A stretch of 64,000 nucleotides of DNA from the NCBI RefSeq assembly GCF_004358445.1, contig NZ_CP037951.1:2862001-2926000 (forward strand), read 5' to 3'. Position numbers and translations under genes: made by a program. Shown in pieces: positions 52,732 to 54,340 of this stretch. The first letter of the stretch is position 1. Every line of letters starts with the position of its first letter. Below the pieces are notes generated by a model. That model was not told where the DNA came from. It did no database searches and saw only the letters and a list, made by a program, of their open reading frames with translations. Origin of the DNA: Parashewanella tropica. Lineage in GTDB: Bacteria > Pseudomonadota > Gammaproteobacteria > Enterobacterales > Shewanellaceae.

Positions 52732-52876
52732 GATTATCCCAAGTGATAAATGTATCAGCATTATACGCCTTACCTACTGAAATCAAACGGTAAACTTTTT
52801 GGGCTATTTTCATATACCTACTAAAATTATTTATGACCATGCCACGAGGCAATTTGAGGAAAAGCAAGGTTTCGTT

Positions 52877-53035
52877 ATGAGCAAGGATTATCGCTTCGAT
52901 AAAGATGAGTGGGATGAAAATTCTGACCACGGTGAGGCAAAGCACGAAAAGCGTAAATGGAAAAAAGAGAAAGACTTTAGAGCCAAAAAGAAAAAGTCAA
53001 AGTTTGATGAAGATGACCTCAGCAAAAATTACTGA
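52877..53035 (+). CDS. Small, highly charged hypothetical protein
   Basis: 52 residues from the ATG at 52877, with AAGG 7 nt upstream; an open frame further upstream lacks such a site. Composition is almost entirely Lys, Asp, Glu and Arg (RKWKKEKDFRAKKKKSKFDEDD), likely disordered and nucleic-acid- or protein-binding. No family recognised. Stands alone, divergent from the permease gene, closed by a terminator. Confidence 0.6.
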   Translation: MSKDYRFDKDEWDENSDHGEAKHEKRKWKKEKDFRAKKKKSKFDEDDLSKNY

Positions 53036-53055: not shown

Positions 53056-53075
53056 ATGCCTGCTTGAGCAGGCAT
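53056..53075. terminator. Bidirectional terminator
   Basis: ATGCCTGCT-TG-AGCAGGCAT, 9-bp perfect stem, with TTCTATTTTT on the minus strand. Between the convergent small charged protein gene and the S4-RraB gene. Confidence 0.8.
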
Positions 53076-53086
53076 ATCAAAACAAA

Positions 53087-53707
53087 CTAGTGAGAACAAC
53101 CTTCTCCGCATTCATGCTCTTCATCAGCGAATTCATCATCCCCTTCTTGATGTTGCATCACGCCCCATCCATCCGAGATCCCATCGTACTCTTCTGCAAA
53201 ATCATGAAGCTCAGATTCAGCAGCAATAATAGCGTCATATTCAGGCATCATGTGAATGGAAACAATCAATTCCCACTTAGTCGACTCCTCATTAAACAGC
53301 AGTTCAACTTCACCTTCGCGATCTGAATTAACAAGATCTTCGAGTGCCGTCTCCGCATCACGCTGCTCGTCAAATACCAAGAAAAAATCGATATCTTGAG
53401 ACTTTGACAAATCCACACCCGCTTCAGCCATAGCAGCCAACATTTGCCCATTATCATCATCAGGAAACTGCATCATTTCATCCTCAGAGGTGATCATTAC
53501 TGATTCACCATTAAAAGTAACTACATCACCCGCAACCACTTTTTTGCGTTTGCGAGTTTCAACTTCACCATTTACTAGAACATAGCCTTCAGAGATAACA
53601 TGCTTAGCTTCGGCACCAGCACTGATCATCCCCTGAATTTTCAGAATTTTATAAAGCTCAATAAACTCATCACCCGAGCGGAGTTCTAGTGTTTCAATAT
53701 CAGACAT
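53087..53707 (-). CDS. Fusion of an S4 RNA-binding domain with an RraB-like RNase E regulator domain
   Basis: 206 residues. Residues ~14-70 form an S4/YbcJ-type RNA-binding domain (LYKILKIQGMISAGAEAKHVISEGYVLVNGEVE). Residues ~82-186 match the RraB fold: DDNGQMLAAMAEAGVDLSK, DIDFFLVFDEQRDAETAL, MMPEYDAIIAAESELHDFAEEYDG and DGWG, then an acidic tail as in E. coli RraB, ending in HECGEGCSH, a possible metal-binding tail. RraB inhibits RNase E by binding its scaffold region. The S4 part would add direct RNA or ribosome binding; this combination is inference from sequence. No frame problem is visible. Confidence 0.8.
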   Translation of the reverse strand: MSDIETLELRSGDEFIELYKILKIQGMISAGAEAKHVISEGYVLVNGEVETRKRKKVVAGDVVTFNGESVMITSEDEMMQFPDDDNGQMLAAMAEAGVDLSKSQDIDFFLVFDEQRDAETALEDLVNSDREGEVELLFNEESTKWELIVSIHMMPEYDAIIAAESELHDFAEEYDGISDGWGVMQHQEGDDEFADEEHECGEGCSH

Positions 53708-53750: not shown

Positions 53751-54278
53751 CTAAAATTCCCTAGACAATAATCCGAAAACGCAATCATCCACCCAACGTT
53801 CACCGTTTTTAACATGTTCTCGTAATACGCCCTCTTGCTTAAAGCCTGTTTTTTGCATTACACGTTGAGAGCCAATATTTTCAATATCACAGTAACCTAT
53901 AAATTTCCGAATACCATATTCAGTAATCCCCCACTCAACGACCCGCTTAAGTGCTTCAGTTGCAAACCCTTTACCTTGAGCGCTTGGGCGCAGCATGTAA
54001 CCTACTTCAACATCGTTATATTCTTTATCAATACGGCGAAAACCTGAATAACCAACAAAGTTTCCTTGTCTATCTTCTAAAACCAGTGCTAGCCATTCAT
54101 TTAGCTCATAATTCCAAGTTTTCTTTCTTTGATCGAAAACTTCTCGAATTTGTGCTGCTGGCTCAGGAGGTCTAATGAAGCGGCAAATCTCTTCACTAGA
54201 GTTCATTTCATAGAAATTCGACCAGTCAGAATCGACTAAAGATCTTAATGTCAGGTTATCAGTTTCTAGGTATATCAT
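53751..54278 (-). CDS. GNAT-family acetyltransferase, RimJ/RimL-like
   Basis: 175 residues. Starts LETDNLTLRSLVDSDWSNFYEM, with the acetyl-CoA loop LRPSAQGKGFATEALKRVV and the C-terminal NIGSQRVMQKTGFKQEGVLREHV, all typical of ribosomal-protein or small-molecule N-acetyltransferases of the RimJ/RimL type. The substrate is unknown. AGAGGATGAA precedes the ATG. Same strand as the DUF885 gene downstream of it in the window but separated by a terminator region. Confidence 0.9.
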   Translation of the reverse strand: MIYLETDNLTLRSLVDSDWSNFYEMNSSEEICRFIRPPEPAAQIREVFDQRKKTWNYELNEWLALVLEDRQGNFVGYSGFRRIDKEYNDVEVGYMLRPSAQGKGFATEALKRVVEWGITEYGIRKFIGYCDIENIGSQRVMQKTGFKQEGVLREHVKNGERWVDDCVFGLLSREF

Positions 54279-54298
54279 TTCATCCTCTGAAAAAAGAA

Positions 54299-54318
54299 AG
54301 GCGGCATAATTGCCGCCT
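54299..54318 (-). terminator. Intrinsic terminator of the GNAT/DUF885 intergenic region
   Basis: AGGCGGCA-TAAT-TGCCGCCT, 8-bp GC-rich stem, followed on the minus strand by TTCTTTTTT. It overlaps the upstream side of the GNAT start region and lies 23 bp past the DUF885 stop, so it ends DUF885 transcription. Confidence 0.85.
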
Positions 54319-54340
54319 CTAGATAACTAACTTAAATCAG

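Follow-up and report, generated by a model that had tools for sequence, protein, structure and literature searches.

Although YbcJ-type S4 proteins are widespread, little is understood of them, and the physiological role of RraB is still vague. YbcJ of E. coli was purified together with RluB, SrmB, DeaD, RNase E, and RNase R, and cells without it make protein more slowly and less faithfully (PMC2672614); it also associates with the 50S subunit (PMC11066096, citing Jiang 2007). RraB docks on the scaffold of RNase E at residues 694–727 and remodels the degradosome (PMC4435900; PMC10126417). While E. coli YbcJ is a single-domain protein of 70 aa encoded beside folD, the S4 half described here is instead joined to a protein of the RraB family, which we call RraB2. 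A literature search found no paper with both "RraB" and "S4 domain", which bears out the statement of the first-pass annotation of this DNA that no S4–RraB protein was described, and the retrieved passages on RraB and Shewanella held nothing about this gene pair. The architecture, new to the literature searched, combines two known protein families and is limited to a single family of bacteria.

The fusion gene lies at 53087..53707 of the window, the whole 64,000-nucleotide stretch of Parashewanella tropica DNA analysed here, on the minus strand (as do all features given below unless noted), and ORF inspection revealed a single uninterrupted ATG-to-stop frame of 206 aa. Residues 13–72 (53492..53671) match the S4_2 family PF13275 (1.3e-24, 86.3 bits against a gathering cut-off of 24.6), residues 20–63 also match the classical S4 family PF01479 above the Pfam curated cut-off (1.9e-5), and residues 84–183 (53159..53458) match RraB, PF06877 (8.4e-25, 87.7 bits against 23.3). 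Neither half fails profile search, and the proposed order of an S4/YbcJ-type domain ahead of an RraB domain in one frame was upheld with Pfam matches that exceed the curated cut-offs on both sides. The genome groups with Parashewanella and shows 95% protein identity to P. curva; in this comparison the whole frame is under purifying selection (dN 0.029, dS 0.89), as are the S4 half (dN 0.012, dS 0.39) and the RraB2 half (dN 0.037, dS 1.94) taken separately.

The fusion is the sole protein of this genome with an S4_2 match above cut-off, and its S4 half is 46% identical to E. coli YbcJ (PF13275, 1P9K), with which it shares the fold and an ETRKR stretch, here within the basic VETRKRKK. It nevertheless stays below the cut-off of the YbcJ equivalog NF008561 (65.6 vs 95 bits), as does the unfused S4 protein of Shewanella ANA-3 (73.9 bits). 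The S4 half itself is acidic overall (pI 4.7 vs 7.8 for YbcJ), which would weaken its general affinity for RNA. As a separate observation, a basic C-terminal tail that looks disordered and ends in a short motif like (R/K)(R/P)xIxF is present on S4_2 proteins from Ferrimonas and from other families of the order (loci L077, L079, L084, L090, L092, L093, L053, L058, L073, and L074), and this tail is missing in Shewanella and Parashewanella.

An AlphaFold2 model built from 46 relatives (mean pLDDT 84, pTM 0.53) predicts two domains well; the short linker between them, near residues 71–80, is modelled with less confidence, and from residue 186 onwards the chain is a disordered tail (pLDDT <50). By sequence, E. 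coli YbcJ (1p9k; phmmer 1.8e-12) is the nearest solved relative of the S4 half, and this half of the model matches it too (Foldseek E 8e-5, 46% identity), whereas a profile of the back half gave V. cholerae VC0424 (1nxi) as its sole sensible match among solved structures (E 0.008), and the modelled RraB half superposes on the same protein (Z 10.9, 111 residues, rmsd 4.0, 19% identity). The fold search list was dominated by S4 proteins; other matches of the RraB half, such as a permuted S6, were weak hits to common folds and were set aside.

RraB2 resembles the RraB proteins of E. coli and V. cholerae (PF06877, 1NXI) in family, predicted fold, strong acidity (charge −34, vs −25 and −41 for RraB), and the DGWG core common to both, but differs in its Cys/His tail, its linkage to S4, its low identity (21.5% to the RraB of its own genome, 29% to that of E. 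coli), and its failure of the RraB equivalog NCBIfam NF008393 (12.5 bits vs a cut-off of 82). The first-pass identification as RraB thus stands at the level of family and fold and falls at the level of the protein itself: judged by its sequence, RraB2 is a divergent RraB paralog, not RraB. A search for a normal rraB, which the first-pass annotation had advised, located it elsewhere in the genome, encoding a canonical protein of 134 aa that scores 186.5 bits against NF008393. Three proteins of this genome match PF06877, namely canonical RraB, the fusion, and a weaker, divergent third copy of 126 aa (G000:C1:1052113-1052397; L003:1441-1821), vs only two such matches in each of 13 other Shewanellaceae genomes of the order sample. 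Among 274 genomes drawn from the class, an RraB2 profile matched in only five others, and no S4 neighbour of these matches was present in the fetched stretches. The closest RraB2-type relative among phage and plasmid records is a stand-alone Acinetobacter protein (36% over residues 80–186) annotated as "RNase E inhibitor protein" (PF06877-like), which adjoins rluA and, unlike RraB2, is without S4, both in its own frame and among its neighbours in the stretch fetched; no full-length copy of the fusion was found in the plasmids and phages searched.

To place the fusion within its family, 152 Shewanellaceae genomes in the GTDB sense, including apparent Ferrimonas and Paraferrimonas, were compared. 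The S4_2 gene scored above cut-off in 150 of them, and in all 150 RraB2 lay downstream on that strand, its domain match separated from that of S4_2 by 18–129 nt; the two genomes without the pair come from a single genus, in which genomes are small. The S4 frame of most relatives ends after about 70–85 codons and RraB2 is its own gene shortly downstream, typically starting with MQFPDDDNG behind a GGAG-like site. The search for further fusions, likewise advised at first pass, was successful: S4 and RraB2 share one frame in seven genomes in total including the window, comprising all five Parashewanella (207–210 codons) and two of 129 Shewanella, S. mangrovi and its sister (215 and 220 codons). 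The S4–RraB fusion is therefore real, neither an artefact nor unique to the window genome; it is a local joining of a gene pair that is conserved family-wide.

Outside the Shewanellaceae, no S4–RraB neighbours were found in 198 sampled genomes of the order, in which both S4_2 and RraB are common, and profile search of 20 S4_2 neighbourhoods in 19 genomes of the same order, apparent candidates included, detected no RraB. In genomes of the order sample with long RraB frames, S4 is distant or lies on a different contig, and those of one family (f6) with S4_2 also have three to four RraB copies, none of them adjacent. Within the genomes searched, the S4–RraB2 pairing hence looks specific to Shewanellaceae. 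A contig labelled Marinobacter nauticus (L059) bears a Ferrimonas-like S4–RraB2 pair, which the tree places with Ferrimonas balearica; the contig is probably mislabelled or contaminated.

The pair of the window has the same setting as its relatives, with S4_2 directly upstream of RraB2 on the same strand and beside genes for GNAT, DUF885, and TSUP proteins. Across related loci, GNAT recurs in 41 of 57 and DUF885 in 44 of 57, together with the TSUP transporter and often SbcD/SbcC; because these surrounding genes are common to fused and unfused loci, the fusion happened in place. One tree built from S4 plus RraB2 and another from two flanking proteins both require two changes for the fused state; forcing all fused sequences into one clade was not rejected (p-AU 0.10 and 0.34), and two events are favoured because the fused groups sit in different GTDB genera. 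Mainly on this genus placement, the fusion probably arose twice independently.

The GNAT acetyltransferase gene of the window (53751..54278; PF13302, 8.6e-31) lies 43 nt upstream of the fusion on the same strand. A Rho-independent terminator-like hairpin (53056..53075) directly follows the fusion stop codon, a fitting position although the terminator scan found two where 1.4 were expected by chance, and a second precedes the GNAT gene (54297–54320). Since the hairpins enclose both genes, GNAT is probably co-transcribed with the fusion. The NCBIfam model that GNAT matches best, that of the L7/L12 serine acetyltransferase, gives only 42 bits where the cut-off is 184, and a ribosomal substrate is possible as far as such a match can tell. 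Convergent with the fusion, a frame on the plus strand (52799-53035) could encode a lysine-rich, highly charged protein of 78 aa, similar among the 57 loci only to one in P. curva.

A conserved gene pair that became fused in two lineages is classic evidence for joint action, and the S4 protein and RraB2 probably work together because they are separate neighbouring genes across the rest of the family. Our preferred reading, tentative and held at slightly less than an even chance, is that the fusion may be a two-domain regulator of RNA metabolism, in which a YbcJ-type S4 domain and RraB2 would tether RNase E control to the ribosome or pre-50S particle. By analogy with YbcJ, the S4 domain would bind ribosomal RNA or the 50S or pre-50S particle, and by analogy with RraB, the acidic RraB2 would bind the basic RNase E scaffold and dampen or retarget cutting; joining them would localise control of RNase E to the ribosome or its precursor, for instance protecting assembling rRNA or governing decay of nearby mRNA. 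In the unfused relatives, strict adjacency suggests that the same two proteins could act as partners made together. The earlier proposal that such a protein could bring RNase E control to ribosomes is plausible by analogy, which the co-purification of E. coli YbcJ with RNase E supports. The window genome, a 4.22-Mb single contig, encodes both RNase G and an RNase E (1087-aa frame) whose scaffold region is long and basic; within this Parashewanella RNase E, the docking segment can be aligned just loosely and weakly, in a low-complexity region. We counted against the regulator the low identity of RraB2 to RraB, the equivalog failures of both halves, the acidic S4, and the separate canonical RraB.

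How the two genes were joined can be read from the linker TSEDEMM (residues 73–79, 53471..53491), which by comparison with unfused pairs is the old intergenic spacer, now translated and ending at the former RraB2 start codon; across the seven fused genes it reads SEDEM-M, SEDEI-M, GEEL-M, EEQM-M, or EESS-M. All seven retain the old RraB2 ATG with a GAGGA-, GAGG-, or GGAG-like site 7–8 nt upstream, and among the in-frame ATGs compared in five fused genes only that of RraB2 has a GGAG/AGGA-type site at normal distance. In the window, the Shine-Dalgarno-like GAGGA (53481..53485) stands 7 nt before the RraB2 ATG (53473–53471) and serves this and an adjacent second ATG (53476–53474), while the fusion's own S4 start has no ribosome-binding site of note. 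Because every one of the seven fused genes keeps this start codon and its ribosome-binding site, two products are possible, and it is plausible from these signals that internal initiation would also give free RraB2. Less probable, and in our view doubtful as a whole, is the wider proposal that one gene with two starts would yield both tethered S4–RraB2 and free RraB2, and that the two-gene pairing would be a family-wide system explaining the co-purification of YbcJ with RNase E.

The same start signals would also suit a near-neutral fusion, in which loss of the S4 stop merely joined the genes, RraB2 is still made from its internal start, and the two proteins serve the same process with no tether needed. 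This alternative, somewhat unlikely, draws further on the unfused state being functional in >140 species, yet it fits less well with in-frame persistence in five Parashewanella genomes over synonymous-saturating divergence and with a joining that probably arose twice.

The C-terminus offers a further possibility. The short CxxxC-His tail noted at first pass is present as HECGEGCSH (53090..53116), and its motif H-x(1,2)-C-x3-C-x-H occurs in 42 of 57 loci, with variants preserving Cys and His in 10 more; it is absent in Ferrimonas and Paraferrimonas. Such conservation is the pattern expected of metal ligands, and the tail may possibly bind metal. RraB2 could accordingly have left RNase E and become an acidic adaptor or a metal-responsive partner of S4 acting through this tail, with a target such as a ribosomal protein, a helicase, or RNase G, which would agree with the low identity to RraB, the equivalog failure, the separate canonical rraB, and a tail conserved in Shewanella RraB2 but absent from the canonical RraB proteins of Parashewanella. 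We consider this unlikely, and more so than a near-neutral joining, as RraB2 has the fold and DGWG core in common with RraB, and RNase E itself is among the proteins that co-purify with E. coli YbcJ. Finally, an assembly or frameshift artefact joining two genes, to which the separate genes of most relatives could point, is vanishingly improbable: sequencing error is excluded because four further Parashewanella assemblies have the same fusion, and an assembly artefact is ruled out by seven genomes with fused genes, five Parashewanella and two of the S. mangrovi clade, with no internal stop and dN/dS far below 1.

For the Shewanellaceae, a strict gene pair that is fused in two lineages predicts that S4 and RraB2 act together, and the link between the ribosome and RNase E control drawn in our preferred reading of a tethered regulator becomes directly testable in cultivated Shewanella.
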